The notes beneath the pieces are model-generated. The model saw only the letters and a program-made list of their open reading frames with translations, was not told where the DNA came from and made no database searches. A DNA stretch of 64,000 nt, from the NCBI GenBank assembly GCA_020073585.1, contig JAIQEV010000007.1:1-64000 (forward strand). Direction: 5' to 3'. Positions 27,417 to 63,912 of this stretch are shown here, piece by piece (the stretch's first letter is position 1; each line of letters begins with the position of its first letter). The position numbers were made by a program, and so were the translations under genes. The stretch comes from Terriglobia bacterium (lineage in GTDB: Bacteria > Acidobacteriota > Terriglobia > Acidiferrales > UBA7541).

Positions 27417-28787
27417 ATGGCGATAGCCACGATTAACCCTGCAACAGGCGAGACCCTGAAAACTTTCGAACCGCTGAGCGACGCGCAGATCGAAGAGAAA
27501 CTGCAGCGCGCAAGCAGCGCGTTTGCCAAGCACCGCAAGATGCCCTTTGCGGAACGCACCCGGTTGATGCTCAAGGTGGCGGAGATCCTGGAAAAGGACA
27601 AGGAAGTTTTCGGCCGGGTAATGACCACGGAGATGGGCAAGACCTATCGCTCCGCGGTGGATGAAGTCCTGAAATGCGCATCGGGATGCCGCTACTACGC
27701 GGAGAACGCCGAGCGCTTTCTGGCGGATGAGGTCATCGCGACCAGCGCCAGCCGCAGCTTTGTGCGTTACCTTCCGATCGGTCCGGTCCTGGCGGTGATG
27801 CCGTGGAACTATCCCTTCTGGCAGGTGCTGCGCTTCGCCGCGCCGGCTTTGATGGCGGGCAACGTGGGGCTGCTGAAGCACGCGTCGAACGTGCCGCAAT
27901 CGGCGCTGGCCGTCGAGGATCTCTTCCGCAGGGCGGGTTTTGCCGAAGGCGTCTTTCAGACGCTGCTGATCGGCTCGGCCAAAGTCGACGGCATCCTCAA
28001 TGATCCGCGGGTCGTGGCGGCCACGCTTACGGGCAGCGAAGGCGCAGGGATTGAAGTGGGCATCGGCGCGGCCAAGCGCATCAAGAAGGTCGTGCTGGAG
28101 CTGGGCGGCAGCGATCCTTTCATTGTCATGTCGAGTGCGAATCTGGACGCCGCGGTGGAGACCGGCGTGAAGGCGCGGTGCGTGAACAACGGGCAATCGT
28201 GCATCGCCGCCAAGCGCTTTATCGTGGCCGAATCGATTGCCGAGGCCTTCGAACGCAAGTTCGTCGCGCGCATGGAGGCGCTGAAGGTGGGCGATCCGTT
28301 CGATGAGAGCGTGGACGTCGGGCCGCTGGCCACTCCGGACGGCGTGACCGATCTCGACCGGGACGTGCAGAAGTCGGTGCAGGCTGGTGCGCGGATTCTG
28401 ACTGGCGGCAAGAAGCTGCCGCGCCCGGGCAATTTTTATGCGCCGACGGTCCTGACGAACATTCCCAAGAATGCGCCCGCATACAAGGAAGAACTGTTCG
28501 GGCCGGTGGCGTGTATCTTCCGCGCAAAAGACGTGGACGACGCCATCCGTATCGCCAACGACACGCGCTTCGGGCTGGGCGCCAGCGCCTGGACCAACGA
28601 TAAAGCCGAGCGCGAGCGCTTCATCAACGATCTGGATGCGGGGATGGTGTTCATCAACAAGATGGTGGCCTCCGATCCGCGGGTCCCGTTTGGGGGTGTG
28701 AAGCAGTCCGGGCACGGGCGCGAGCTGAGCATCCACGGGATTCGGGAGTTTACGAACGCCAAGACGGTGTGGATCGAAGAGGCGTAA
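27417..28787 (+). CDS. Aldehyde dehydrogenase (succinate-semialdehyde dehydrogenase-like)
   Basis: PIGPVLAVMPWNYPFWQVLRFAAPALMAGN; VVLELGGSDPFIVM; NNGQSCIAAKRFIV. Confidence 0.9.
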   Translation: MAIATINPATGETLKTFEPLSDAQIEEKLQRASSAFAKHRKMPFAERTRLMLKVAEILEKDKEVFGRVMTTEMGKTYRSAVDEVLKCASGCRYYAENAERFLADEVIATSASRSFVRYLPIGPVLAVMPWNYPFWQVLRFAAPALMAGNVGLLKHASNVPQSALAVEDLFRRAGFAEGVFQTLLIGSAKVDGILNDPRVVAATLTGSEGAGIEVGIGAAKRIKKVVLELGGSDPFIVMSSANLDAAVETGVKARCVNNGQSCIAAKRFIVAESIAEAFERKFVARMEALKVGDPFDESVDVGPLATPDGVTDLDRDVQKSVQAGARILTGGKKLPRPGNFYAPTVLTNIPKNAPAYKEELFGPVACIFRAKDVDDAIRIANDTRFGLGASAWTNDKAERERFINDLDAGMVFINKMVASDPRVPFGGVKQSGHGRELSIHGIREFTNAKTVWIEEA

Positions 28788-28926: not shown

Positions 28927-29664
28927 ATGCGTAGGGAGAACATCGTGTACAAAGCAGTTCAGTCTTTGCGCTTGTACGAGCAGATCGTTCAACAGATCGA
29001 GGAGTCGATTCAGAAGGGCGCGCTCAAGGCGGGCGATCAATTGCCCGCGGAACGTGAGCTTGCTCAACGGTTTGGGGTCAGCCGCACCGCCGTCCGGGAA
29101 GCCGTCAAGGCCCTGCATGAAAAGGGTTTGGTGGAGGCCTATTCGGGCCGCGGCACCTTCATTACCAACGGCACCTCGCAAGCCATCCGGCAGTCGTTCG
29201 ATCTGATGATTAAATTTGGGCAGTCGGACGGGTCCGCGCATCTCGCGGAAATGCGCGCCATACTCGAGCCGGAGATTGCCGCTCTAGCGGCGAGCCGCGC
29301 GGATGAGGCGCATCTGGCCGTCATGCGCGAGGCGGTCGCCGTCATGGACCGTTCCATGGAGGATCCCAACGCGTTCATCGAGGCGGATCTCGATTTTCAT
29401 CTGGCCCTGGCCGAAGCGGCGGCCAACCCCCTGATTTTGTCGGTGACCGACTCCATCGTGGGGTTGCTGCGCGAGCAGCGCATGCGCATCTTTTTGGCCC
29501 CGGGCGGTCCGGAGCGCGGACAATCTCACCACAAACGTGTTCTCGATGCCGTGGAGCGTCGCGATCCGGACGGCGCGCGGGAAGCGATGCGTGCGCACTT
29601 GCGACAGGTCCGGGAGGATTCGCAAGACGCGTCCGGGGGGCAGGTACCGGGCGTTACGAAATAA
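28927..29664 (+). CDS. FadR/GntR-family regulator (FCD)
   Basis: ESIQKGALKAGDQLPAERELAQRFGVSRTAVREAVKALHEKGLVEAYSGRGTFI. Confidence 0.9.
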   Translation: MRRENIVYKAVQSLRLYEQIVQQIEESIQKGALKAGDQLPAERELAQRFGVSRTAVREAVKALHEKGLVEAYSGRGTFITNGTSQAIRQSFDLMIKFGQSDGSAHLAEMRAILEPEIAALAASRADEAHLAVMREAVAVMDRSMEDPNAFIEADLDFHLALAEAAANPLILSVTDSIVGLLREQRMRIFLAPGGPERGQSHHKRVLDAVERRDPDGAREAMRAHLRQVREDSQDASGGQVPGVTK

Positions 29665-29690: not shown

Positions 29691-30572
29691 ATGGCAAATC
29701 TTGGGTTTGTAGGCCTCGGAGTAATGGGCAGTCAGATGGTGAGCCGGCTGCTGGACAAGGGCCACACGGTGACGGGTTACAACCGCACGCGTGGGAAGGC
29801 CGAATGGCTGATCAAGAAGGGCATGAAGTGGGCCGATTCGCCGCGCGCGGTGGCAGCCGCGGCTGACGTGACCTTTTCCATGGTTACCAATACCAAGGCG
29901 CTGATGGCCATCATGGAAGGACCGGACGGGATATTGGCCGGGGTTACCAAGGGCAAGGCGCTGGTGGACATGAGCACCATCAGCCCGGAAGCGAGCCGCA
30001 GCCTGGCCGCCAAGGTGCGGGAAAAGGGCGCGGACCTGGTGGATGCGCCGGTTTCCGGAAGCGTGATTACGCTGCAGGAAGGGAAGCTGTCGGTGATGGT
30101 CGGCGGGCGCAAGGAAACGTTCGAGCGGGTGCAGCCGCTGCTGCTGGACATCGGCCCGAAGGTCACCCACGTGGGGGACAACGGGCTGGCGCTGGCGATG
30201 AAGATCGCCGTGAATCTGAGCCTGGCCGTGCAGATGCTGGCGTATTCCGAAGGGGTGCTGCTGGCGGAGAAGAGCGGAGTGGCGCGCGAGGTCGCGGTGG
30301 ACGTGCTCACGCACAGCGTGGTGGCGTCGCCGATGGTGCAGTACCGCGGGCCGTTCATTCTGAAGATGCCCGACGAGGCGTGGTTCAACGTGAACATGAT
30401 GCAGAAGGACATGCTGCTGGCTCTGGAGCTGGGGCGGCAGCTCGACGTGCCGCTGCCGACGACCGCGGTGACCAACGAATTTCTGACCGCCGCGCGGGGC
30501 ATGGGCATGGTGGAGCAGGATTTCGCCGTGCTGTTTGACGTGCTGGCCCGCATGTCGGGAGTTGCGAAATGA
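29691..30572 (+). CDS. NAD(P)-dependent oxidoreductase, 3-hydroxyisobutyrate dehydrogenase family
   Basis: ANLGFVGLGVMGSQMVSRLLDKGHTVTGYNRTRGKAEWL; VDAPVSGSVITLQEGKLSVMVGG; GLALAMKIAVN. Confidence 0.9.
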   Translation: MANLGFVGLGVMGSQMVSRLLDKGHTVTGYNRTRGKAEWLIKKGMKWADSPRAVAAAADVTFSMVTNTKALMAIMEGPDGILAGVTKGKALVDMSTISPEASRSLAAKVREKGADLVDAPVSGSVITLQEGKLSVMVGGRKETFERVQPLLLDIGPKVTHVGDNGLALAMKIAVNLSLAVQMLAYSEGVLLAEKSGVAREVAVDVLTHSVVASPMVQYRGPFILKMPDEAWFNVNMMQKDMLLALELGRQLDVPLPTTAVTNEFLTAARGMGMVEQDFAVLFDVLARMSGVAK

Positions 30573-31567
30573 CGATAGCCGCCGGGAGCTCCGAGACGCA
30601 GACCGCGCTCGGCGTCCAGCAGTGGATGGGCATGTACAGGCAGATGCTGAGCATCCGCCTGTTCGAAGAGCAGGTCAACGAATTGTACAAGCGCGCGCTG
30701 ATGCCGGGCCTGGCCCATCTGTACTCGGGGGAAGAGGCCGTGGCGGTGGGGATCTGCGAGGCGCTGCGGGGCGACGACTACATCACCAGCACGCATCGCG
30801 GGCACGGGCACTGCCTGGCCAAGGGCGCCACGCCGGACCGCATGTTCGCGGAGCTGCTGGGCAAGGAAGCGGGCTACTGCCGCGGCAAGGGCGGCTCGAT
30901 GCACATCGCCGACCCCAAGACGGGCAACCTGGGCGCGAACGCCATCGTGGGCGGGAGCGCGGGGATTGCCACGGGCGCGGCGTTTTCCGCCAAGCAGCTG
31001 AAGACCGGGCAGGTGGCGGTGTGCTTCTTCGGTGAGGGCGCGCTGGGACAGGGCCTCTTCTACGAAGTGATGAACCTGGCGCAGCTCTGGAAGCTGCCGG
31101 TGATCTACGTCTGCGAAAATAATCTGTATAACGAGTACACGCACTACACGGAAACGACGGCGGGGGACATTCTGGCGCGGGGCACGGCGTTCGGGCTGCA
31201 TGCGGAGAGCGTGGACGGGCAGGATGTGCGCGCGGTGCATGCGACGGCCGCGCGGCTCGTCGAGCGGGCGCGGCGCGGCGAGGGGCCGGCGCTGCTGATG
31301 TGCAAGACCTACCGCTACACCGGCCATCATGTCGGCGACATCAGCCGCGAATACTACCGTTCGAAGCAGGAAGAGCAGCACTGGATGGGGGAGCGCGATC
31401 CCATCAAGCTGTTCGCGGGCTGGCTCCTCGAGCAGAAGCACGCGGAGAAGGCCCAGCTCGAGGGGATTTACGCGGAGATCGAAACGCAAATGAAGAAAGC
31501 CGTCGAGTTCGCCGTGGCGGCGCCCTATCCCGGTCTGGACCAAGTGGAGCAAGACATTTATGCCTGA
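30569..31567 (+). CDS. 2-oxoacid dehydrogenase E1 alpha subunit (pyruvate/acetoin type)
   Basis: SGEEAVAVGICEALRGDDYITSTHRGHGHCLAKG; GEGALGQGLFYEVMNLAQLWKLPVIYVCENN. Confidence 0.9.
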   Translation: MTIAAGSSETQTALGVQQWMGMYRQMLSIRLFEEQVNELYKRALMPGLAHLYSGEEAVAVGICEALRGDDYITSTHRGHGHCLAKGATPDRMFAELLGKEAGYCRGKGGSMHIADPKTGNLGANAIVGGSAGIATGAAFSAKQLKTGQVAVCFFGEGALGQGLFYEVMNLAQLWKLPVIYVCENNLYNEYTHYTETTAGDILARGTAFGLHAESVDGQDVRAVHATAARLVERARRGEGPALLMCKTYRYTGHHVGDISREYYRSKQEEQHWMGERDPIKLFAGWLLEQKHAEKAQLEGIYAEIETQMKKAVEFAVAAPYPGLDQVEQDIYA

Positions 31568-32555
31568 AGCAGCCGTGCGGGAATTGACGTTCGCGCAAGC
31601 GATCAAAGAAGCGCTGGCCGAAGAGATGCGCCGCGATCCGAAGGTGTGCATTCTCGGCGAGGATGTGGCCGAAGCCGGCACGCCGTTCAAGGTGCTGTCG
31701 GGCCTGGTGGAAGAGTTCGGCACGGAGCGCGTGATTGATACGCCGATTTCGGAAGCCGGGTTCACGGGCCTCGCGGTGGGCGCGGCCATGACCGGCGTGC
31801 GTCCCGTGGTGGACATCATGTTCGGGGACTTCATCACGCTGACGATGGATCAGATGGTGAATCAGGCGGCCAAGGTGCATTACATGTCGGGGGGCACGTG
31901 GAAGGTCCCGATGGTGATGCGCACGACGCTGGGCGCCGCGCGGCGTTCGGCGGCGCAGCATTCGCAGTCGCTGCATGCGTGGTTCAGCCACGTTCCGGGG
32001 CTCAAGGTGGTGCTGCCATCCACGCCGTACGATGCCAAGGGGCTGCTGAAGACGGCGATCCGCGACGAGAACCCGGTGGTCTTTTTCGAAGACAAGATGA
32101 TGTACAAGCTGAAGGGGCCGGTGCCCGCCGAGGAGTACACCATTCCGCTGGGCTTGGCCGACGTGAAGCGCGTGGGCCGCGACATCACCCTGGTGGCCAC
32201 CAGCAGCATGGTGCAGGTGGCGCTGGGCGCGGCGAAGCTTTTGGAAGAGGCGGGGATCAGCGCCGAGGTGGTTGATCCGCGCACGACCTGGCCGCTCGAC
32301 GAGAAGACCATCGTCGAATCGGTCAAGAAGACCTCCCGGGCCATCGTCATGGACGAAGGCTATGGGCGGTACGGCGTGGCGGCGGAAATCGCCGCGGTGA
32401 TCGCCGAAGGCGCATTTTATCAACTGGACGGGCCGGTGAAGCGCATGGGGGCCATGCACGTTCCGATTCCGTTCTCGCCGCCGCTCGAAGATGCAACCTT
32501 GCCCACCGACCGCACGGTGTTCGAAGCGGCCCGTGCGCTCTGTAGCCGTTCTTAA
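31560..32555 (+). CDS. 2-oxoacid dehydrogenase E1 beta subunit
   Basis: ILGEDVAEAGTPFKVLSGLVEEFGTERVIDTPISEAGFTGLAVGAAMTGVRPVVDIMFGDF; overlaps the E1 alpha stop. Confidence 0.9.
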   Translation: MPEAAVRELTFAQAIKEALAEEMRRDPKVCILGEDVAEAGTPFKVLSGLVEEFGTERVIDTPISEAGFTGLAVGAAMTGVRPVVDIMFGDFITLTMDQMVNQAAKVHYMSGGTWKVPMVMRTTLGAARRSAAQHSQSLHAWFSHVPGLKVVLPSTPYDAKGLLKTAIRDENPVVFFEDKMMYKLKGPVPAEEYTIPLGLADVKRVGRDITLVATSSMVQVALGAAKLLEEAGISAEVVDPRTTWPLDEKTIVESVKKTSRAIVMDEGYGRYGVAAEIAAVIAEGAFYQLDGPVKRMGAMHVPIPFSPPLEDATLPTDRTVFEAARALCSRS

Positions 32556-32577: not shown

Positions 32578-33924
32578 GTGGCATTGCCGACACATGGATT
32601 GATGGCCGTTGATTGGGAGCAGAGGATCGATTACGACCGGCTGCGGCGCGAGCGCCTGGCCCGGGTGAAAGCGCATCTGGCCAAGTCCTCGATGGGCGCG
32701 CTGCTGTGCTTCGACATGAACAACGTGCGCTACATCACCGCCACGCACATCGGCACCTGGGCGCAGGACAAGATGAGCCGGTTCACGCTGCTGCCGCAGA
32801 AGGACGAGCCCATCCTGTGGGACTTCGGATCGGCGGCCAAGCACCATCAGTTGCATTGTCCGTGGCTCGGAGAGCGTTCGCGGCCGGGCATCGGCATGCT
32901 GCGCGGAGCCATGTCGCCGGAGATGGGCCGCGCCGAAGACGTGGCCAAAAAGATCCGCATCGAGCTGGAGAAGCGCGGGCTGCACAAGGAGCCGGTGGGA
33001 GTGGACATCATCGAGCCACCGATCCTCTTCGCCCTGCAGAAGGAAGGAATCAGCATCGTCGACGGGCAGCAGCTCATGTCCGATGTGCGCTTGATCAAGA
33101 CCCAGGACGAGATCGCGCTGCTGAATACCTCGGCGATGATGGTGGACGCGGCTTACGACGAGCTGTACCGGGCGATGAAGCCGGGCATGAGCGAGAACCA
33201 GGCGGTCGGGCTGGTCAGCAAGGTGCTCTACGATCTCGGCTCGGAGTACGTGGAGGCGGTGAACGCGATTTCCGGAGAGCGCTGCAACCCGCACCCGCAC
33301 GTTTTTTCGGACCGCATCCTGCGGCCCGGCGATCCGGTGTATTACGATGTGCTGCATTCGTTCATGGGCTACCGCACCTGCTACTACCGCACCTTCACCA
33401 TCGGCTATGCATCGCACGCGATGACCGACGCCTACAAGCGCTGCCGCGAGTATCTGGATGCGGCGATTTCGCTGGTGCGGCCCGGGCGCACGACCGCGGA
33501 GATCGCCGCGGTGTGGCCGAAGGCGCAGGAGTTCGGCTTCCCGAGTGAAGAGGCGGCGTTCGCGCTGCAATACGGCCACGGCATTGGGCTGGCCATCTGG
33601 GAAAAGCCGGTGATCAGCCGGCTGGTTTCGCTGGAGCACTCCTGCGAGATCAAGCCGGGCATGGTGTTCGCGCTGGAGACCTTCTGGCCTTCCACCGACG
33701 GCTGGAGCGCGGCGCGCATCGAGGAAGAGATCGTGGTGACGGAAACCGGGCACGAAGTGATCACGCGCTTCCCGGCGGAAGAACTGCTGGTCGCGGGCTC
33801 GCACTATGTGTCGGTGAAGGGGCCGCTGCCGACGCTGCGCGAGCACGATCCGGAGCCGAGCCACCGCGTCAAGGAGATGATCGCCGCAAGCGCCAAGGTG
33901 GAAGGAGTCGGAGTCAAGAGCTGA
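32578..33924 (+). CDS. M24 (pita-bread fold) metallopeptidase-like protein
   Basis: GALLCFDMNNVRYITATHIG; YYDVLHSFMGYRTCYYRTFT; YGHGIGLAIWEKP; KPGMVFALETFWPS; RIEEEIVVTETGHEVIT. Confidence 0.8.
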   Translation: MALPTHGLMAVDWEQRIDYDRLRRERLARVKAHLAKSSMGALLCFDMNNVRYITATHIGTWAQDKMSRFTLLPQKDEPILWDFGSAAKHHQLHCPWLGERSRPGIGMLRGAMSPEMGRAEDVAKKIRIELEKRGLHKEPVGVDIIEPPILFALQKEGISIVDGQQLMSDVRLIKTQDEIALLNTSAMMVDAAYDELYRAMKPGMSENQAVGLVSKVLYDLGSEYVEAVNAISGERCNPHPHVFSDRILRPGDPVYYDVLHSFMGYRTCYYRTFTIGYASHAMTDAYKRCREYLDAAISLVRPGRTTAEIAAVWPKAQEFGFPSEEAAFALQYGHGIGLAIWEKPVISRLVSLEHSCEIKPGMVFALETFWPSTDGWSAARIEEEIVVTETGHEVITRFPAEELLVAGSHYVSVKGPLPTLREHDPEPSHRVKEMIAASAKVEGVGVKS

Positions 33925-33953: not shown

Positions 33954-35150
33954 ATGGCTATCAGCGTCGTAATGCCCGCACTGGAGTTGATGCAGGAGAC
34001 CGGCAAGGTTCTGGCTTGGCGAAAAAAAGAAGGCGAACAGGTAGTCAAAGGCGAGCCGCTGCTGGAAATTGAAACCGACAAAGCCGTGGTGGAAGTGGAA
34101 GCCCCCGGGGAGGGCATCCTCGCGGGGATTACGGCGCCCGAAGGCGCGGTCATTCCCGTGGGACAGACCATTGCGTGGCTGGTCCTTCCGGGCGAGGCGG
34201 TTCCCGCGGCTGGCGCGCCGGCGGCGGTCCCCGGTCCGGCGCGCGCAGAAGCCGCGCGTCCGGCCGTAGCGGCCGCGGAGAGTTCCGCGCCGGCGGCGGG
34301 CGGCGGAGCGCGGATTTCGCCCAAGGCGCGGCGAATGGCGCGCGAGCACGGCATTGACATTGCCCAGGTGCGCGGATCGGGCGCCGACGGCGAGATTCTA
34401 GCTTCGGACATTCAGGCATTGGTGGACGCGAAGGGCGCTCCCGCTGCTGCTCCGGTCGCCGCCGGCGGTACTGAAGCGCTGGGTATCATCGGGCGACTGA
34501 TGGCCGAGCGCACCACGCAGAGCTGGACCAGCGTGCCGCATTTCTTCGTGGTGCGGGAAGTGGACGCCGGCGCGCTCGTGGATGCGCACAAGAAGCTGCG
34601 CGAGAGCGTGGAGAAGGCGCGCGGGGTGAAGCCCACGCAGACCGACATGCTGGTGGCGCTGGTGGCCCGCGCGCTGGCGAAGCACCCGCGGATGAACGCC
34701 AGTTGGACCGGCGCGGCAATCCGCCTCAATCCCGACGTGAATATGGCCGTGGCCATGGCCGTGAACGACGGCGTGGTCGCGGCGGTAATTCCCAAAGCGG
34801 ACTCCCTGGACCTCGGGGAAATCGCCGTGCAGCGGCGGGACCTCACGGAGCGCGCCCGCGCGGGGCGTTCGCGCCCGGCGGACATCGCCGGCGGGACGTT
34901 CACGATCAGCAACCTGGGGATGTTCAACGTGGACTCGTTCACCGCGATCATTAATCCGCCGCAAGCCGCGATTCTCGCCGTGGGGCGCATTGCCGATCGC
35001 GTGGTGCCGGTGGATGGCAAGCCGGCGATCCGGCCGATGATGACTTTGACGCTCTCCAGCGACCACCGCGTCGTGGACGGGGCGCGTGCCGCGGCGTTCA
35101 TGAACGACGTGGTCGAAGCACTCCGCGAACCCGAGAAGTGGTTGCGCTGA
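33954..35150 (+). CDS. 2-oxoacid dehydrogenase E2 (dihydrolipoamide acyltransferase)
   Basis: Lipoyl motif EIETDKAVVEVEAP; PSBD RISPKARRMAREHGIDIAQVRGSGADGEI; catalytic SSDHRVVDGA. Confidence 0.9.
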   Translation: MAISVVMPALELMQETGKVLAWRKKEGEQVVKGEPLLEIETDKAVVEVEAPGEGILAGITAPEGAVIPVGQTIAWLVLPGEAVPAAGAPAAVPGPARAEAARPAVAAAESSAPAAGGGARISPKARRMAREHGIDIAQVRGSGADGEILASDIQALVDAKGAPAAAPVAAGGTEALGIIGRLMAERTTQSWTSVPHFFVVREVDAGALVDAHKKLRESVEKARGVKPTQTDMLVALVARALAKHPRMNASWTGAAIRLNPDVNMAVAMAVNDGVVAAVIPKADSLDLGEIAVQRRDLTERARAGRSRPADIAGGTFTISNLGMFNVDSFTAIINPPQAAILAVGRIADRVVPVDGKPAIRPMMTLTLSSDHRVVDGARAAAFMNDVVEALREPEKWLR

Positions 35151-36542: not shown

Positions 36543-37643
36543 ATGCCAGCACAGTACCGAGCCGATCATATCGGGAGCTTTCTGAGGCCCGCCGAGATTC
36601 TGGAAGCGCGGCGTTCCGCGCCGGCCAGTGCCGTGCAGTTGCGGAGCATCGAGGACCGGCACATCCAGCACGTTCTGGCGAAGCAGAAAGAGCTGGGGTT
36701 CGAGATTTTTACGGACGGCGAGCTGCGCCGGCGCAACTTCATGAGTGATTTCACCGACGCGGTCGAGGGCTTCGACTTGGGCGACGCCGTCTCGCGCACC
36801 TGGAAGGCCGGAGAATCGAAGGACGCCGCGGTGAGCAGCGTGACCGGGATCGTGACCGCGAAGCTGCGCCAAGTGCGCCCCCTGACGGGACACGAGCTGG
36901 CGTTCCTCAAGACGCACAGTCCCGGCGCCATTAAGATGACGCTGCCGAGCGCCACGCAGTTTCCGGCGATCTCCTTCAAGCGCGGCGTCACGGAAAAGGT
37001 ATACAAGGACCATGCCGCGCTGCTTTGGGACATCGTGGAGATCATGAAGGCGGACCTCGCGAAGCTTTCCGCGGATGGCGTGAGCTACATCCAGATTGAT
37101 GCGCCGCGCTACAGCTACTACATGGACCCCAAGTGGCGCGAGTGGATCCGCAAAGAGATGCATGCCGAGCCGGATGCGCTGCTGGACGAGGCCATCCGCG
37201 CGGACAACGCCTGCTTCGCGGCGGCGCGGCGCCCGGGCGTGACCTTGGCTATCCATCTGTGCCGGGGCAACAATCGCAGCCATTGGTACGCGGAAGGCGG
37301 CTACGACGCGGTAGCCGAGAAGTTGTTCGGGACGCTGGCGGTGGACCGCTTCCTGCTGGAATACGATGACGAGCGCTCCGGATCGTTCGAGCCGTTGCGT
37401 TTTGTGCCGCGGGGCAAGACGGTGGTTCTGGGGCTGGTGAGCTCGAAGCTGGCTAAGCTGGAAAGCGGCGATGAGCTCGTGCAGCGCATCCACGAGGCCG
37501 CGCGCTACGTGCCGCTGGAGAATCTCGCGCTGAGCCCGCAATGCGGCTTCGCTTCCACCATGGAAGGGAATCTGCTTACCGAGGACGAGCAGTGGGCCAA
37601 GATGCGGCTGGTGGCGGAGACCGCCCGCCGCGTCTGGCGCTGA
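36543..37643 (+). CDS. Cobalamin-independent methionine synthase II family (MetE C-terminal-like) protein
   Basis: RADHIGSFLRPAEILEAR; ligand-type motif IHLCRGNNRSHW; final LSPQCGFAST. Confidence 0.85.
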   Translation: MPAQYRADHIGSFLRPAEILEARRSAPASAVQLRSIEDRHIQHVLAKQKELGFEIFTDGELRRRNFMSDFTDAVEGFDLGDAVSRTWKAGESKDAAVSSVTGIVTAKLRQVRPLTGHELAFLKTHSPGAIKMTLPSATQFPAISFKRGVTEKVYKDHAALLWDIVEIMKADLAKLSADGVSYIQIDAPRYSYYMDPKWREWIRKEMHAEPDALLDEAIRADNACFAAARRPGVTLAIHLCRGNNRSHWYAEGGYDAVAEKLFGTLAVDRFLLEYDDERSGSFEPLRFVPRGKTVVLGLVSSKLAKLESGDELVQRIHEAARYVPLENLALSPQCGFASTMEGNLLTEDEQWAKMRLVAETARRVWR

Positions 37644-46185: not shown

Positions 46186-47217
46186 ATGCAGAAAAAAGAA
46201 GATCTCGCAAAAGACCGCCTGCTCTGGATGTATACGCAGATGCTGCGCATCCGCGAGTTCGAGGAGCGCATCAAGCGCACCTTCGTCGAGCACCCCGGAG
46301 TGATCCGCGGCCACACGCATCTCGGCGACGGCGCGGAAGCTTCCATCGTCGGGGCCCTGGCGACCCGCAGCGAGAACGACCTGGCCATGCCCAGCTACCG
46401 CTGCCACGGCTATCCCATCGTGCTCGGCACCTCCACGAAAAAAATGATGGCGGAGATCTACGGGCGGAAAGATGGTCTGTGCCAGGGCTTTGGCGGTTCG
46501 ATGCATTTGGCCGATCCCGCGCACCATTTTCCCGGCACCTCGGGGATCATCGGCCAGGCCATCGCCCATGCCACCGGCGCCGCTCTGACGGCCCAGGTGA
46601 AGAACACCGGCCAGGTGATCTACTGCTTCTTCGGCGACGGTTCGAGCAAGCAAGGAGCGTTCTACGAATCGCTGAACATGGCGGCGGTCTGGAAGCTGCC
46701 GATCGTTTACGTTCTCGAGAACAACGAGTATCAGGTTTACACCCACGTCAGCCTCGAGGACGCCAACCATGCCGCCGGGGACCCTCTGTCCCAGAAGGCC
46801 AAGGCCTTCAGCATCCCTGGCGTCACGGTGGACGGCAACGACGTCCTCAAGGTGTACGAAGAGGTGGGGAAGGCCGCCGAGCGGGCGCGTGCGGGTCGGG
46901 GCCCGAGCCTGATCGAATCGAAATTTTACCGTTTCAGCGCGCATGGCAATGCCATCACCGTGCCTCCGGTGCCCACGCAGTTCCCCGAGCACGAAGCCAT
47001 CGAAACCTACGGCAAGAAGGACGAGTACGCCGCGGCCAAGGCCAAGGATCCGATCCTGCAGTTCCGCACCAAGCTGCTGGGCAGCGGCGTTTTGTCCGAA
47101 GCCGAAAATAAGCGCATCGAAGAGACCGTTCGCGCGGAGATGGAAGAGGCCGTGAAGTTTGCGCTGGCCAGCCCGTTCCCGGCGCCCGAAGAAGCGGTCA
47201 AGTACGTGTACGCCTAG
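46186..47217 (+). CDS. 2-oxoacid dehydrogenase E1 alpha subunit (second copy)
   Basis: GDGAEASIVGALATRSENDLAMPSYRCHGYPIVLG; GDGSSKQGAFYESLNMAAVWKLPIVYVLENN. Confidence 0.9.
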   Translation: MQKKEDLAKDRLLWMYTQMLRIREFEERIKRTFVEHPGVIRGHTHLGDGAEASIVGALATRSENDLAMPSYRCHGYPIVLGTSTKKMMAEIYGRKDGLCQGFGGSMHLADPAHHFPGTSGIIGQAIAHATGAALTAQVKNTGQVIYCFFGDGSSKQGAFYESLNMAAVWKLPIVYVLENNEYQVYTHVSLEDANHAAGDPLSQKAKAFSIPGVTVDGNDVLKVYEEVGKAAERARAGRGPSLIESKFYRFSAHGNAITVPPVPTQFPEHEAIETYGKKDEYAAAKAKDPILQFRTKLLGSGVLSEAENKRIEETVRAEMEEAVKFALASPFPAPEEAVKYVYA

Positions 47218-47231
47218 AAGGGGGACAGCTT

Positions 47232-48212
47232 ATGCCGCGCGAAATGATGTACGGGGAAGCAATCGCCACGGCCATCGTGGAAGAGATGAAGCGCGATGGC
47301 GACGTCATTTTCTATGGCCAGAATCTCGGGATGACCGAGAAAGATCACATGGTCAGGTTGTTCGGCAAGAATCGCGTGCGCATCACCCCCATCTCGGAGA
47401 CGGCGGAGATGGGCATCGCCGTGGGCGCGGCCATGACCGGGCTGCGCCCGGTGGTCGAGCTGTGGATGAGCGAGTTCATGCTGGTGGCCATGGATCAGGC
47501 GCTCAACGAAGCGCCGCGGCTTCGCTACATGACCGGCGGGCAGGTGAAGGTGCCGCTCGTCTTCAAGGCGGGCTACGGGTTCGGCGCTGGGTGGGCGGGC
47601 CAGCATTCCAATTGCATCTACCACATGATGATGGGAATCCCCGGCTTGAAAGTGGCGCTGCCTTCGACGCCCGCGGACGCCAAGGGGCTCCTGACTGCCG
47701 CCATCCGCGACGACAACCCAGTCGTGTATCTGCATCACTACATGTTGACGCTGGACCGGGGCGAGGTGCCGGACGGGGATTACGTGATCCCCTTCGGCGT
47801 AGCCGACGTGAAGCGGGCCGGCAGCGATGTCACGCTCGTGGCCACGGGATGGATGGTGAAGAAGTCGCTTGCGGCTGCGGAAGTTCTGGCCAAGGAGGGC
47901 ATCAGCGTCGAAGTGATCGATCCCCGGACCATCGCGCCTCTCGACGTGCAGACCATCGTGGCGTCGGTGAAAAAGACCGGCCGGCTGGTGCTTGTGGATC
48001 AGGCCCCCCGCCACGCTTCTGTTGCGGTGATCATCGCCGGCGAGGTCGCCGAGCACGGCTTCCAATACTTGAAGGCGCCGGTCAAGATGGTGACCGCGCT
48101 GGATACCTCGGTCCCCTACAGCGAGCCGCTGGAAAAGTTCGTGCTCCCCGACGAAGACAAGATCGTTCGGGCGGTCAAAGCGGCGATGGCCAGACAGGCC
48201 GCCACGGTCTAG
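47232..48212 (+). CDS. 2-oxoacid dehydrogenase E1 beta subunit (second copy)
   Basis: DGDVIFYGQNLGMTEKDHMVRLFGKNRVRITPISETAEMGIAVGAAMTGLRPVVELWMSEF. Confidence 0.9.
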   Translation: MPREMMYGEAIATAIVEEMKRDGDVIFYGQNLGMTEKDHMVRLFGKNRVRITPISETAEMGIAVGAAMTGLRPVVELWMSEFMLVAMDQALNEAPRLRYMTGGQVKVPLVFKAGYGFGAGWAGQHSNCIYHMMMGIPGLKVALPSTPADAKGLLTAAIRDDNPVVYLHHYMLTLDRGEVPDGDYVIPFGVADVKRAGSDVTLVATGWMVKKSLAAAEVLAKEGISVEVIDPRTIAPLDVQTIVASVKKTGRLVLVDQAPRHASVAVIIAGEVAEHGFQYLKAPVKMVTALDTSVPYSEPLEKFVLPDEDKIVRAVKAAMARQAATV

Positions 48213-57265: not shown

Positions 57266-59263
57266 GTGCTGACCGTAGACATTGATATCGGCGGAACGTT
57301 AACCGACGGGATTTTCAGCGACGGCCGGAAGGTCGTCTGCGCCAAGGTGGACACCACCCCCCACGACCTGACTATCTGCCTGTTCGACTGCCTGACGCAG
57401 GGCGCCACGCAACTGGGCTACTCCGACGTGGATCTGTTTCTGGAAAACGTCGAGCTCATTCGCTGGTCCACGACCATCACTTCCAACGTCCTCGCGGAAT
57501 TGCGCGGCCCGCGCATCGGCCTGCTTATCTCGCGGGGCCACGAAAAGGACCTGTACGGCAAGGAGCCGCGCAGCATCGTCCTCGGCCGCATTCTTTCCGA
57601 GCGCGATGTCACCGGGATCAATGGGGACAGCAGCGAGACGGAGATCATGAACGCCGTGCGCACCCTGCTCGAGAGCGGCGCGCGCCGCATTTGCGTCAGC
57701 CTCCGGGACGCCCATCTCCATCCCGAACAGGAAATCCGCATCAAGCGCATCGTCGACCAGCAGTACCCGGACCATTTCCTCGGCTCCGTCCCGGTTCTTG
57801 CCGGCAGCGATATCTCCAAGAGTTCCGACGCCATGACCCGCACCTACTGCGCCCTGATCAATGCCTATACGCACGGCGCGCTGGCGGCTACGCTCTTCAA
57901 GGCCGAGGACGATCTGCGCGAGGTCCATCGCTATCCCGGCACGTTCCTCGTCAGCCACATCAACGGCGGCGTCTCCGGCATCGCCAAGACCAAGGCCATT
58001 GATACCATCGAATCAGGCCCCATCCTGGGCATCCACGGCAGCGCACACCTGGCCAGAGTCTACAAAGTGAACGAGGTGGTGGCCCTGGACGTCGGCGGCA
58101 CCACGGCTAAAGTCAGCGTCCTGCGCAATACCGCTCCTCTGCTGCGCAAGCCCTCGGATTTCTTCGGCATCCCCGTCGAGATCTCCTTGCCCTACCTGCG
58201 CTCGATTGCCCTGGGCGGCGGGAGCGTGGTGAAAGCCGGCGCAAAAGGACAGCCGCCGGAAATTTCCCTGGGGCCCGAAAGCATGGGCTCCTATCCGGGC
58301 CCCGCGTGCTATGGCTTGGGCGGTGAACAGCCCACGCTCACGGATGCCTTCGTCGCCGCCGGGCTCATCAACCCGGACTACTTCCTCGGCGGCAGCAAGC
58401 CCATCAGCCTGGAGACCGCGCGCCAGACCATTCAGCAGCGCGTCGCCGAGCCCTTGCGGAAATCGGTCGAGGAGGCTTCCCGCGCCATCATCGAACGCGC
58501 CTTCGCGCTTGTCGCCGGCACCATCGCGCACACCAGCGCCGAGCTGCAACAGGATCTTTCCCGGCACACCCTGTTTGCTTACGGCGGAAACGGCGGCCTG
58601 ATCGCCTGCGGCGTCGCCGAGCAGGCCGGGCTGAAGGAAGTTTTTTTCTTCAACCTGGGGCCCGTCTTCAGCGCCTTTGGCTCTTCGGTCTCGGACATCT
58701 CCCACGTCTACGAGCGATCCCTGCATCTGACCTCGCTCGGCGACGCCGAACTGCAACGTCTCAGTGATGCCCTCCTGGACAGCAAAGCCGAGGGCACGCG
58801 CGATCTTCTGGGAGAAGGCATCAAGCCCGACGGTATCGAGTACGCGATCGAGCTGGAAGTTTCGCGCAACGGTCAGCCCTCGGCTGCCGTACCCTGCCCG
58901 GCGGACGCTTTCCGGAGCGCGCAGCAACTGAAAGCGTTTTTGGAGAAAACGCTCGGCGGCGGCAGGGAAGCGTTTGTCGTCGATCTCCTCCGCGTGCAGA
59001 TCAAGAAGGCCATGCCCAAGCCGTCGCTCGCCGCAAAGCCGCTGCAGGGTGCCGATTCCTCGCACGCCAGCAAGGGCCGGCGGCAAGTCGCCTGGGGCAG
59101 CACCACGGGAGAAGCGCAGCTCTACCGCTGGGAAGATCTGCAGCCCGGCAATCGCGTCGAGGGATGCGCCGTGCTGGAAGGCGCGAACAGCACCTATTTC
59201 GTTCCCGAAGGCTGGACGCTGCTCATGGATCACTACGGAAACGCAAAGCTGACGCGGTGCTAG
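57266..59263 (+). CDS. Hydantoinase/oxoprolinase family HyuA-type subunit 1 (ApcA-like); GTG start
   Basis: LTVDIDIGGTLTDGIFSDGR; VALDVGGTTAKVSVL; GSYPGPACYGLGGEQPTLTDAFVAAGLINPDYFLGG. Confidence 0.88.
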   Translation: MLTVDIDIGGTLTDGIFSDGRKVVCAKVDTTPHDLTICLFDCLTQGATQLGYSDVDLFLENVELIRWSTTITSNVLAELRGPRIGLLISRGHEKDLYGKEPRSIVLGRILSERDVTGINGDSSETEIMNAVRTLLESGARRICVSLRDAHLHPEQEIRIKRIVDQQYPDHFLGSVPVLAGSDISKSSDAMTRTYCALINAYTHGALAATLFKAEDDLREVHRYPGTFLVSHINGGVSGIAKTKAIDTIESGPILGIHGSAHLARVYKVNEVVALDVGGTTAKVSVLRNTAPLLRKPSDFFGIPVEISLPYLRSIALGGGSVVKAGAKGQPPEISLGPESMGSYPGPACYGLGGEQPTLTDAFVAAGLINPDYFLGGSKPISLETARQTIQQRVAEPLRKSVEEASRAIIERAFALVAGTIAHTSAELQQDLSRHTLFAYGGNGGLIACGVAEQAGLKEVFFFNLGPVFSAFGSSVSDISHVYERSLHLTSLGDAELQRLSDALLDSKAEGTRDLLGEGIKPDGIEYAIELEVSRNGQPSAAVPCPADAFRSAQQLKAFLEKTLGGGREAFVVDLLRVQIKKAMPKPSLAAKPLQGADSSHASKGRRQVAWGSTTGEAQLYRWEDLQPGNRVEGCAVLEGANSTYFVPEGWTLLMDHYGNAKLTRC

Positions 59264-59312
59264 AACGACATTCCGCACCGCGGGAATGCGCAGATCGGGC
59301 AAGGGGAGAGCA

Positions 59313-59699
59313 ATGGCATCCGAACAACCAAGCCGCATCCGGGTCACCGAGTACCTCGACCTGGATATTGACCGGGAAAAGTGGCTGTGTAACCGCTGCA
59401 ATTTCGAGATTGGTCCGGCCCGCGAATCCTACAAGAAGGGCTGCCTGCTCCACGACCGAGATCCCCGCGAGGTTCATCCGCCACTGGTTTCCGGCGATTT
59501 CAGTTTTTCCCCGGACCCCCTGTGGGTCCGCATTGTCGAGTTTTACTGCCCCGGCTGCGGCGCGCAGGTGGAGACGGAATACCTGCCCCCGGGACATCCC
59601 CTCACCTGGGACATCGAAATCGATCTGGACAGCTTGAAGGAAAGATTGCGCGCCGGCGAATTCAAGATTCGTAAGCAGCGACTCGAGGTCTCCGAATGA
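59313..59699 (+). CDS. Small zinc-ribbon subunit (acetophenone/acetone carboxylase small-subunit-like, ApcB-like)
   Basis: 128 aa; WLCNRCNFEIGPARESYKKGCLLHDRDPREVHPP...EFYCPGCGAQVETEYLPPG; lies between the two HyuA genes. Confidence 0.65.
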   Translation: MASEQPSRIRVTEYLDLDIDREKWLCNRCNFEIGPARESYKKGCLLHDRDPREVHPPLVSGDFSFSPDPLWVRIVEFYCPGCGAQVETEYLPPGHPLTWDIEIDLDSLKERLRAGEFKIRKQRLEVSE

Positions 59700-61825
59700 A
59701 CTCCATTGATATCGACGTGGGCGGCACCTTCACGGACCTGGTCCTCAACTACGAGGGCAAGAGCCTCATCAAAAAGGTTCCCACGACCCCCTACGACCTC
59801 TCCGTCTGCTTTTCGAAGGTCATCGAAGAGGGCGCGGCCTCCCTGGGCCTCAAAATCGAGGAGTTGCTTCCCGGGATCGACATGATCCGCTACTCGACGA
59901 CGATCGCGTTGAATCGCCTGATCGAGAAAAAAGGTCCCCGCCTCGGCCTGATTACCACCGAAGGCCACGAAGACGTGGTCCTCATCGGACGCGGCGCGCA
60001 GTGGATCGACGGAACCCGCGTGGCCGAACGCAGAAACCTGGCCATTCAGAAAAAACCGGACCCGCTCATCCCCCGCGACCGCATCGTCGGCGTGAAGGAG
60101 CGCATCGACTCCCGCGGCAATATCATCCGCCCTCTCGACGAGGATGACGTGCGCGCCAAGGTGCGTTCCCTGGTAAGCAAGGGCGTGCGCGGTTTCGTGG
60201 TCTCCCTTCTCTGGGGCTTTTTGAACCCCATCCATGAGAAGCGCATCAAGGAGATCATCCGCGACGAGTACAAGGAATTTCACATCGGCTATCTTCCCGT
60301 CGTGCTCGGCGGCCAGGTGGTCGGTAAGCTCGGCGAGTACGAGCGCACGCTCGCCGCGATCCTGGACGCCTACCTGCAGCGCTCCATGCAGATCGAGCTC
60401 TCCGCGATGTGGGACAAGCTGCGCGACCGCGGCTATAAGAAGCCCCTGCTCATGATCCAGAGCTCCGGGGGCATCGCCGAGGTCTTCCGCACCGCCGCCA
60501 GCCGCACCTTCAACAGCGGCCCCGTCTCCGGCCTCATGGGCGCGCATCACGTGGCCAAGTCTCTCGGCTACAAGAACGTCGTCATGACCGACATGGGCGG
60601 CACCAGCTTCGACGTCGGTCTCGTCGTCAAGGACAGCGTCCGCAGCTACGACTTCCGCCCCATCATCGATCGCTGGATGGTCGGCATCACCATGATCAAG
60701 ACCCTCTCCATCGGCGCCGGCGGCGGCTCCATCGCCTGGCTCAACAAGCTGCTGCAGAACCAGCTCCAGGTGGGCCCCAAGAGCGCCGGCTCCATGCCCG
60801 GGCCGGCCTGCTTCAATCTCGGCGGCACCGAGCCGACGGTCACCGATGCCGATGTCGTGCTCGGCTATCTCAATCCCGACTTCTATTACGGCGGCAAGCT
60901 GCGCCTCGTCAAGGAGCGCTCCATCCAGGCCATCCGCGACAAAATCGCCAAGCCTCTCGGCATCGATGTCGAACAGGGCGCCCAGATCATCCGCAAGATC
61001 GTCAACGGCAACATGGCCTCGGCGATCATGAAGGAAGTCCACCTGCGCGGCTACAGCCCCGAGGAATTCATTCTTTTCGTCGGTGGCGGCGCGGGCGCCA
61101 CGCATGTGGAAGGGTATATGGCCGATGTGCCCAAGGCCGTCACCTTTTCCTTCTCTCCGGTCTTCTGCGCGTTCGGCTCGTCCACCATGGACATCATGCA
61201 CGTCTACGAGGCTTCGAAGAAGATTACCCTGATGGAGCCGCGCACGCAGAAACTCGCCGAAGAGTTCACGGGCTTTAACCGCGCGGTCGAGATGCTGATC
61301 GAGCAGGCCAAGCGGGATCTCGTGGCCGACGGCCTCAATCCCGGAGATGCCGGCTTCGTCCTCGAGCTGGACATGCTCTACGGCGGACAGTTCCACGTGA
61401 AACGCACGCTCTGTCCCCGGCTGTCCCTGCACGGCGCCGAGGACGTCCGCGCGATCTGCGACGCTTTCGAAAAGGAGTTCAGCGAAGCGTTCAGCCCGTT
61501 CGTCGTCAACCCCGAGGGCGGTGTCTTCATCGAGAGCTTCATCCTCAAGGCCATCGTTCCGACCAAGAAAGTGGAATTGCCCGTCATGCGCCTGGAAGGC
61601 CACGATCCCAGCGCCGCCCGCAAAGGCGAGCGCCCGGTCTATTGGACCGAGGCCAAGGGCTTTAAGACCACGCCGATCTATGCCTATGAATCGGTGCGTT
61701 CCGGTAATCTGATCGAAGGCCCCGCGGTGGTCGAAGGCGAATACACGACGCTCGTGGTCCCGCCTTCGATGCAGTTTTCCGTGGATGCACGGGGCCTCGG
61801 AATTCTGGAAAACCGGAAAGCCTAG
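59696..61825 (+). CDS. Hydantoinase/oxoprolinase family HyuA-type subunit 2 (ApcC-like)
   Basis: NSIDIDVGGTFTDLVLNYEGK; VVMTDMGGTSFDVGLVV; GSMPGPACFNLGGTEPTVTDADVVLGYLNPDFYYGG; ATGA overlap with the small subunit. Confidence 0.9.
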   Translation: MNSIDIDVGGTFTDLVLNYEGKSLIKKVPTTPYDLSVCFSKVIEEGAASLGLKIEELLPGIDMIRYSTTIALNRLIEKKGPRLGLITTEGHEDVVLIGRGAQWIDGTRVAERRNLAIQKKPDPLIPRDRIVGVKERIDSRGNIIRPLDEDDVRAKVRSLVSKGVRGFVVSLLWGFLNPIHEKRIKEIIRDEYKEFHIGYLPVVLGGQVVGKLGEYERTLAAILDAYLQRSMQIELSAMWDKLRDRGYKKPLLMIQSSGGIAEVFRTAASRTFNSGPVSGLMGAHHVAKSLGYKNVVMTDMGGTSFDVGLVVKDSVRSYDFRPIIDRWMVGITMIKTLSIGAGGGSIAWLNKLLQNQLQVGPKSAGSMPGPACFNLGGTEPTVTDADVVLGYLNPDFYYGGKLRLVKERSIQAIRDKIAKPLGIDVEQGAQIIRKIVNGNMASAIMKEVHLRGYSPEEFILFVGGGAGATHVEGYMADVPKAVTFSFSPVFCAFGSSTMDIMHVYEASKKITLMEPRTQKLAEEFTGFNRAVEMLIEQAKRDLVADGLNPGDAGFVLELDMLYGGQFHVKRTLCPRLSLHGAEDVRAICDAFEKEFSEAFSPFVVNPEGGVFIESFILKAIVPTKKVELPVMRLEGHDPSAARKGERPVYWTEAKGFKTTPIYAYESVRSGNLIEGPAVVEGEYTTLVVPPSMQFSVDARGLGILENRKA

Positions 61826-61851
61826 ACGGCTCGGAGCGAGCAAGGAGAACC

Positions 61852-63912
61852 ATGCCCATACCTACGTTAGCGGAAAAACTTCAGTGGCTGAAGCCCGCCC
61901 CGGCCACGCCGCACGAGATCGAATGCGCCGCGAAGCTCCGCCAGGGCGACTACGAAATCGGCGTGCAGATCACCAACGACATTCTGGACGAAGCCATGGA
62001 GATCTTCGTCCGCTCCTCGCGCAGCTATTTCGGCGTCTCCGGCGACTCCATGGTGGCCATCTTCACGGCCGGCGGCGATCTGATCAACGCTTCCTGCGGC
62101 ACCTATCTGCACGCCATCATTCAGCCCATCGTCATCAAGTTCATCCTCAAGTATTACTCGGAAAATCCGGGCATTCACGATGGCGACATCTGGTACACCA
62201 ATGACGCCCTCTATGGCGGCATTCACAACCCCGACCAGGTGGCCTTGATGCCCGTCTTTCACGACGGCAAGCTTCTGGCCTGGGCTTCCGCCGCACTGCA
62301 CACCACCGAAACCGGCGCCATCGAGCCTGGCGGCATGCCGGTCAGCGCCAAGTCCCGCTTCGAGGAAGGCCTGAACCTTCCGCCCATCAAGATCGGAGAA
62401 AATTTCAAGCTGCGCAATGATTTCCTCGAATTTTACGCCGTCTACGGCCTCCGCGCCCCGGCCATGTTCATCTCCGACCTCCGCGCCCGTTGCACCACCA
62501 CCGATCGCGTCCGCGCCCGCTTGCTCGAACTGGTCGAAAAGCGCGGGCCGGACTACCTGGTGGGTTTGATCCGCAAGATGCAGGACACCGCCGAAGCCGG
62601 CGCACGCCAGAAGGTCAAATCTCTTCCGGACGGCAAGTTCCGCGCCGTGGTCTTCAATGACGCCATCGGCTGGACGCCCGCCCTCGTGCGCTCGTGTTTC
62701 CTCACCCTCACCAAGAAGGGTGAAAAGATCACTTTCGATTTTGCGGGTACTTCACCGGAAAATCCCTCCTCCTACAACGTGCACACGCAGGCCGTGGTCG
62801 GGCACATCGCAAATTTCATGTATGAGTACATCTTCCACGACCTCCCGATTTGCAGCTCCACCTTTGCCCCCATCGACTTCGAATTTCCGGAGGGCATCAT
62901 TCTCAACCCCGGCAAGCTGGCTGCTACCAGCTGTTGCGTCTTCATCGGCATGCAGGCGCGCAACGCCACGCACAACGCTTTCGCCAAGATGGTCTTTTCC
63001 AGCGAAAAGTTCTGGCACCAGGTGGCCGCCGCTCCCGGCAGCCAGCATACCTCGCAGATCTGCGCCGGTCTTTCGCAGTGGAACTTGGCCGTCTCCGACG
63101 TTCTTTCTTTCTCCTTGAATACCCAGGGCCAAGGCGGGCGCTCCGGAACCGACGGGATGGATTCCTACGGCTTCGCCTGGTGCGCGTTCGGCCGCGCGCC
63201 CGATTCCGAACAGGTCGAAAGCGAACTGCCCTTGTCGGTCATGCTCTCCCAGCACTGGCGGGATTCCTGCGGCCATGGCGTACATCGCGGCGGCTCCGGC
63301 GCCGTGCAGCAGTGGATGATCCACAAGATGCCGAACATGGTTTCCATGTGCATGGGGAACGGGAGCAAAGTGCCGATCGGCCAGCCTCTGTTCGGCGGAT
63401 ACGCTTCGTCGCCCATTCCGGGTATCAGCATCCGCAAAGCCGACCTGCTGAAACAGATGAAGGAAGGCAATCCCGATCTCGTGATGGATCACCGCACGAT
63501 CATCGAGAAAGGCACGATTCACGGCGATTGGAAATTTGAGCTCGTCGCCCGCACCCCCAAGGTCTATGAAGAGGGCGACTTGCTCTTCGGCTTCAGCGGC
63601 GGCGGCCCGGGCTATGGCGACCCCCTGGAACGTGATCCCGAATCCGTGATGGACGATCTGAAGAAAAAGATCATCTCGGACTGGACCGCGCAGAATATCT
63701 ACAAGATCGCCTATGATCCCGAGCGGCGAAAAGTGGACATCGAGAAGACCAGGCAGCAGCGCCAGGAGGAAAGAAAGGCCCGGCTGGCCCGCGGTAAATC
63801 CTACGACGACTTCCAGCAGGAGTGGGCCAAAAAGAGTCCGCCCAAGGAGGCGTTGCTTTATTACGGCACCTGGCCCGATGCCAAGCCCACGGGACCCGTC
63901 TTCCGGCCTTGA
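61852..63912 (+). CDS. Hydantoinase B/oxoprolinase family subunit (HyuB/ApcD-like)
   Basis: SRSYFGVSGDSMVAIFTAGGDLI; DGDIWYTNDALYGGIHNPDQVALMPVFHDGKLLAWASAALH; FDFAGTSPENPSSYN; GFSGGGPGYGDPLERDPESV. Confidence 0.9.
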   Translation: MPIPTLAEKLQWLKPAPATPHEIECAAKLRQGDYEIGVQITNDILDEAMEIFVRSSRSYFGVSGDSMVAIFTAGGDLINASCGTYLHAIIQPIVIKFILKYYSENPGIHDGDIWYTNDALYGGIHNPDQVALMPVFHDGKLLAWASAALHTTETGAIEPGGMPVSAKSRFEEGLNLPPIKIGENFKLRNDFLEFYAVYGLRAPAMFISDLRARCTTTDRVRARLLELVEKRGPDYLVGLIRKMQDTAEAGARQKVKSLPDGKFRAVVFNDAIGWTPALVRSCFLTLTKKGEKITFDFAGTSPENPSSYNVHTQAVVGHIANFMYEYIFHDLPICSSTFAPIDFEFPEGIILNPGKLAATSCCVFIGMQARNATHNAFAKMVFSSEKFWHQVAAAPGSQHTSQICAGLSQWNLAVSDVLSFSLNTQGQGGRSGTDGMDSYGFAWCAFGRAPDSEQVESELPLSVMLSQHWRDSCGHGVHRGGSGAVQQWMIHKMPNMVSMCMGNGSKVPIGQPLFGGYASSPIPGISIRKADLLKQMKEGNPDLVMDHRTIIEKGTIHGDWKFELVARTPKVYEEGDLLFGFSGGGPGYGDPLERDPESVMDDLKKKIISDWTAQNIYKIAYDPERRKVDIEKTRQQRQEERKARLARGKSYDDFQQEWAKKSPPKEALLYYGTWPDAKPTGPVFRP

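Follow-up and report, generated by a model that had tools for sequence, protein, structure and literature searches.

An M24-fold protein with a cysteine in place of the bridging metal-ligand aspartate, encoded in a 2-oxoacid dehydrogenase cassette of Acidobacteriota

Comparison with described M24 enzymes

The M24 fold and superfamily are already known. In aminopeptidase P (AMPP), Asp271 binds both metals (PMC5723419), mutation of either Asp260 or Asp271 in the E. coli enzyme has been reported to be inactivating (PMC10377022), and both His350 and His361 contribute to catalysis and to binding of the peptide (PMC5723419, PMC5774706). The metal site of the DMSP lyase DddP comprises six iron ligands, including Asp297 and Asp307, and Asp377 is its proposed base (PMC4108388). 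Creatinase and the ectoine hydrolases DoeA/EutD are non-peptidase, catabolic enzymes on the same fold.

Here we describe an M24 protein encoded in a window of 64,000 nucleotides, positions 1 to 64,000 of contig JAIQEV010000007.1 from a Terriglobia bacterium. Its open reading frame was recovered at 32578-33924 on the plus strand, exactly where an earlier, sequence-only reading had placed it, and encodes 448 amino acids between a GTG start at 32578 and a stop codon ending at 33924. An alternative upstream ATG at 32491 lies within the E1 beta gene; we prefer the GTG because the orthologues share a conserved 'MA' N-terminus. Residues 182-389 match Pfam Peptidase_M24 (PF00557; 3e-36, 125.6 bits against a curated cut-off of 23 bits). 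Using the metal-free AF2 model of the protein (pLDDT 84.8), Foldseek retrieved M24B structures with a probability of 1.00, indicating a pita-bread fold, so that profile and structure agree with the M24 assignment of the sequence-only reading. DddP structures were the top PDB folds (TM 0.73-0.76); creatinase, EutD and prolidases were also among the structural neighbours.

The five-ligand metal set of Asp, Asp, His, Glu and Glu is incomplete in this protein: four are kept, and the second Asp is Cys268 (codon 33379-33381), which in the alignment replaces the bridging Asp271 of AMPP and Asp307 of DddP. The first ligand position, Asp257 (33346-33348), is invariant, corresponds to AMPP Asp260 and DddP Asp295, and is spaced from the cysteine as D-x10-C. 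The others are His334 (33577-33579; AMPP His354), Glu367 (33676-33678) and Glu382 (33721-33723; bridging in AMPP), all codons being on the plus strand. Both the Asp-to-Cys exchange and the retention of the His and the two Glu had been read from the sequence, and both are borne out.

PepP and PepQ have in common with the window protein the pita-bread domain, four of the five metal ligands and the Arg preceding the last Glu, but where they carry the bridging Asp271, His350 and His361, it carries Cys, Leu and Trp. The two histidine equivalents are Leu330 and Trp341 (codon 33598-33600, plus strand). A control set of 34 other M24 proteins, drawn from nine genomes of the same class and including the window's own paralogues, has His at position 341 in all but one case. 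Since the position varies among the Cys-bearing relatives described below, with His in Rhodobacterales and Tyr in haloarchaea, Trp341 is a weaker feature than Cys268. What we take to be the proline-peptidase signature was matched by 15 of the 34 control proteins and not by the window protein, which automatic annotation places in the Xaa-Pro peptidase family.

DddP is the nearest solved relative by sequence, profile and fold (24% identity; PDB 4rzy, 4s00, 4s01, 4b28) and has the same two-domain M24B fold. Its Asp295, His371, Glu406 and Glu421 align with Asp257, His334, Glu367 and Glu382 (PMC4108388). In HMMER alignments, however, DddP Asp307 is replaced by Cys and Asp297 has no equivalent, while the proposed base Asp377 corresponds to Ile340 and Tyr366 to Ala329. 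The DddP model NF043017 was missed, with 117.2 bits against an equivalog cut-off of 600 bits, as were the DoeA/EutD models (61.8 and 60.6 bits against cut-offs of 575-613), and no creatinase family model was matched among the NCBIfam profiles. The gene neighbours of creatinase and DoeA/EutD are also unlike those of the window gene. An identity as DddP or creatinase, both of which the sequence-only reading had named as non-peptidase examples, is thus not upheld: the DddP and ectoine hydrolase models are short by hundreds of bits, and no creatinase model is matched. Because the peptidase histidines are replaced and the DddP-specific residues are absent, the protein appears to be neither a typical peptidase nor DddP.

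Fixation of the cysteine and the Cys-bearing clade

Whether the cysteine is conserved had been left to an alignment of homologues; it is present in 110 of 110 acidobacterial matches, all of which keep the other four ligands. Edaphobacter lichenicola (L110, L114, L115) is a cultured relative. A diverse set of 30 relatives, drawn from Acidobacteriota, Actinomycetota, Rhodobacterales and Halobacteria, has the same residue without exception. It persists in Rhodococcus and Paenarthrobacter proteins of 60-64% identity, in those of Streptomyces, Rhodobacterales and other acidobacteria (52-56%), in a divergent branch of acidobacteria (36-37%) and on haloarchaeal plasmids (34-35%). These proteins have the signature GY[RK][ST]CYYR in common. 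Invariant in their alignments are Asp257, Gly264, Tyr265, Arg271, His334, Glu367 and Glu382, together with Cys268-Tyr269-Tyr270 (tyrosine codons at 33382-33387, plus strand). All 34 control proteins have Asp in the Cys268 column.

An exchange of Asp for Cys requires two base changes, and both Cys codons occur among the 109 distinct sequences (TGC in 89, TGT in 20). Among near relatives, dN/dS of the M24 gene is 0.05-0.10, showing strong purifying selection. Fixation in every acidobacterial match, the use of both codons and the low dN/dS rule out a sequencing error or a one-off substitution. Homologues with Asp at this position, which would have undermined the original claim, occur only outside the Cys clade. 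Reversion to Asp inside the acidobacterial family was likewise rejected: a degenerate search for an Asp version of the signature in 399 genomes of the class returned one match, GYHWDYYR, which we judged to be due to chance. Two viral contigs matched by pattern (L164, L165), and both were rejected as virus-borne copies: the match in L165 lies outside the listed phage open reading frames, and L164 has neither the cassette nor an M24 match.

In a tree of 39 proteins, the 30 Cys proteins lie on one side of a branch with support 99/96, and removal of the motif columns left this support at 96/95.6. The window protein carries the signature and falls within this single clade. The signature was also detected in six genomes from other classes of the phylum, with the same cassette at those loci. 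The closest relatives with Asp are L123-L128, a clade of acidobacterial proteins that has Asp-Phe-Val, and a DddP-like rhizobial protein, which has Asp-Phe-Ser; Cys-Tyr-Tyr is absent from both. At approximately 30-33% identity, the acidobacterial sister clade resembles the window protein in length and overall alignment, whereas its Asp-Phe-Val stands in place of Cys-Tyr-Tyr and its Asp-Asp spacing is one residue longer. Taken together, alignments and tree indicate that the bridging Asp was replaced by Cys once, with the other four ligands kept, in what is a distinct conserved clade.

Gene neighbourhoods of the Cys-bearing M24 proteins

The window cassette lies on the plus strand. It begins with an aldehyde dehydrogenase (27417-28787) that comes near the model for NADP-dependent succinic semialdehyde dehydrogenase (700 bits, cut-off 730), followed by a GntR/FCD regulator (28927-29664) and a 3-hydroxyisobutyrate/tartronate-semialdehyde-type dehydrogenase (HIBDH-type; 29691-30572), for which 2-hydroxymethylglutarate dehydrogenase ranks second among the solved sequence relatives; all three are conserved neighbours. 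Next come the pyruvate-dehydrogenase-like 2-oxoacid dehydrogenase E1 alpha (30569-31567) and E1 beta (31560-32555), the M24 gene, and a dihydrolipoyl acyltransferase E2 with lipoyl, E3-binding and catalytic domains (33954-35150). The M24 gene therefore does sit between E1 beta and E2, as first noted from the sequence.

This cassette recurs at about 100 loci. Among 114 loci carrying the M24 gene, many of them short, we found E1 beta at 106, E2 at 104 and E1 alpha at 101; the 59 longer acidobacterial loci include the HIBDH-type gene in 55 cases and the GntR gene in 47. Of 80 acidobacterial loci, 18 include a Na:dicarboxylate symporter (PF00375), usually directly downstream of E2, and a TonB-type receptor is often encoded upstream. 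With identities of roughly 86% for M24, 86% for E1 beta, 75% for E1 alpha and 60% for E2, the M24 protein and E1 beta are conserved to about the same degree, clearly above E1 alpha and E2.

In other phyla, Rhodobacterales plasmids carry genes for an SDR, M24, E1 alpha, E1 beta, a lipoyl protein, succinic semialdehyde dehydrogenase and E2, and a Streptomyces plasmid those for HIBDH, M24, aldehyde dehydrogenase, a fused E1 and E2. In Rhodobacterales the neighbours further include SDRs and an ABC transporter of the ribose type, and in Actinomycetota an amidase, RidA, an LLM monooxygenase or a flavin reductase. Adjacent E1/E2 genes are lacking at three acidobacterial loci: L103 and L022, which read GntR-HIBDH-M24-dicarboxylate symporter, and L073 (GntR-HIBDH-M24); L102 has E2-like fragments only and L116 is without a cassette partner. 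What unites these neighbourhoods is not the E1/E2 complex itself but small acids of the hydroxy, oxo and semialdehyde types. As the neighbourhoods differ by phylum, the substrate may differ as well, or it may be a shared downstream intermediate.

These results qualify the proposal of the sequence-only reading that the M24 protein feeds the dehydrogenase. The presence of E1/E2 beside M24 at about 100 loci, and also in other phyla, speaks for it, whereas their absence at L103, L022 and L073 speaks against it, as does the 36-37% Cys branch, which instead adjoins genes for a D-2-hydroxyacid dehydrogenase and an HMGL-like enzyme. Because three loci keep the regulator, the dehydrogenase and M24 without adjacent E1/E2, such feeding is plausible and not obligatory. 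The Asp sister clade resembles this Cys branch in adjoining D-2-hydroxyacid dehydrogenase and HMGL-like genes.

A cassette of M24, D-2-hydroxyacid dehydrogenase and HMGL-like genes, in some cases with a zinc alcohol dehydrogenase, recurs at L123-L127, L120 and L122, the last two of which additionally encode a PEP-utiliser/PPDK-N protein. Cys-bearing M24 genes were also seen on Paenarthrobacter plasmids (L143, on Paenarthrobacter sp. R1 plasmid NZ_CP127116.1; L149; L150). One strain has two copies on separate plasmids. One of the Paenarthrobacter copies is about 2 kb away from sulR, a flavin reductase gene, on a plasmid that reportedly bears genes for sulfonamide degradation; a publication on sulfonamide-degrading Paenarthrobacter makes no mention of a peptidase or a ketoacid dehydrogenase. 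On the haloarchaeal plasmids L140 and L141, the Cys-bearing genes are near LLM oxidoreductases and acetolactate-synthase-like TPP enzymes.

Elsewhere, the window encodes another 2-oxoacid dehydrogenase E1 alpha/E1 beta pair (46186-48212), separate from the first and scoring under the pyruvate dehydrogenase cut-offs. Four consecutive genes at 57266-63912 resemble those for acetophenone carboxylase ApcA, ApcB, ApcC and ApcD, all under the equivalog cut-offs, and perhaps encode a ketone carboxylase or a lactamase-type ATP-dependent enzyme. A gene for a cobalamin-independent methionine-synthase-like protein (36546-37640) adjoins those for an aldehyde dehydrogenase and an IclR regulator, a neighbourhood that is odd for methionine synthesis.

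Proposed function and alternatives

The sequence-only reading had favoured a lyase or hydrolase over a peptidase. Its negative half holds, since Leu330 and Trp341, the missing proline-peptidase signature and the catabolic cassette all argue against an ordinary peptidase; the lyase or hydrolase assignment stays putative. The protein is quite probably an active enzyme other than a Xaa-Pro peptidase. Because the cysteine is fixed in bacteria and archaea alongside conserved acid-degrading genes, it is probably an uncharacterised enzyme. The window protein is most likely a metal-dependent lyase or hydrolase acting on small carboxylates. The fuller proposal, in which this distinct M24-fold clade would consist of active non-peptidase metalloenzymes with a thiolate in the metal site that serve small (di)carboxylate catabolism, seems to us about evenly balanced between right and wrong. 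We infer metal binding, thiolate ligation, catalysis and substrate class alike, and the exact reaction is speculative. Cys268 could be kept as a thiolate ligand, or fewer metals could be bound, with the cysteine as base or nucleophile.

In one scheme, the M24 enzyme would cleave an activated carboxylate, acting as a C-C lyase, by beta-elimination or by hydrolysis. One product would be a 2-oxoacid, oxidatively decarboxylated by the adjacent pyruvate-type E1/E2, and the other a semialdehyde, taken by the adjacent aldehyde dehydrogenase and HIBDH-type dehydrogenase; the dicarboxylate symporter would bring in the substrate. We favour this scheme because all conserved partners get a use, but cleavage to precisely a 2-oxoacid and a semialdehyde is rather doubtful, and the presence of both dehydrogenases is insufficient to identify a lyase. 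As sources of the substrate we considered the pathways of pantothenate, N-heterocycles and sugar acids, none of which explains the neighbourhoods of all phyla.

The structural resemblance to creatinase and EutD allows another reading, which we regard as unlikely: a metal-free or single-metal hydrolase resembling creatinase or ectoine hydrolase, in which one or both metal sites would be empty once the bridging Asp was lost, and Cys268 and the remaining acids and His would provide the base or nucleophile for attack on a C-N bond. The amidase and RidA genes beside the Paenarthrobacter copies suggest nitrogenous substrates there. However, the invariance of the four other ligands in the clade argues that the metal site is retained, the ectoine-hydrolase model reaches 61.8 of 575 bits, and the genes around it in acidobacteria encode dehydrogenases for 2-oxoacids and aldehydes and a dicarboxylate symporter.

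That the protein is a peptidase or dipeptidase with a changed metal site, its operon position being incidental, is quite unlikely given that the equivalents of His350 and His361 are both replaced, that the equivalent Asp mutation is reported to inactivate AMPP (PMC10377022) and that the gene is strongly co-conserved with catabolic genes. It would nevertheless agree with the Pfam match and the automatic annotation as a Xaa-Pro peptidase, with the prolidase-like fold and with the retention of Arg380, which aligns with the proton-relay arginine of AMPP.

A pseudoenzyme that has no catalytic activity and acts instead in regulation or as a scaffold, for example by binding the E1/E2 complex, between whose genes it is placed, might also lack a ligand on which AMPP depends, and M24 pseudo-peptidase domains have been proposed for PID-5 (PMC10377022). 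Invariance of the rest of the site across phyla, a dN/dS of about 0.05 and the three loci that retain M24 without adjacent E1/E2 make such a role very unlikely. A variant of DddP is barely conceivable: DddP is the top sequence, profile and fold match, but the score is 117 bits against a 600-bit cut-off, identity is 24%, equivalents of Asp297, Asp307, Asp377 and Tyr366 are missing from the alignment, and the hosts are mostly soil organisms.

Our preferred reading is thus a metalloenzyme that is not a peptidase. The open-access literature searched contained no description of an M24 gene with E1/E2 or of a Cys ligand. On that literature, an Asp-to-Cys exchange that is fixed throughout a cross-domain clade and accompanied by a conserved catabolic cassette appears to be undescribed. 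More tentatively, these proteins may form a bacterial and archaeal metalloenzyme family with a bridging Cys thiolate, whose novel lyase reaction on small carboxylates would feed 2-oxoacid and semialdehyde dehydrogenases in an undescribed catabolic pathway widespread among soil acidobacteria. The fixed cysteine, a sister clade with Asp and the conservation of the cassette could together make a clean experimental system. If the reading is true, a cross-domain catabolic family is now misnamed as Xaa-Pro peptidases, and the M24 fold would hold an unusual metal site with Cys at the bridging position.
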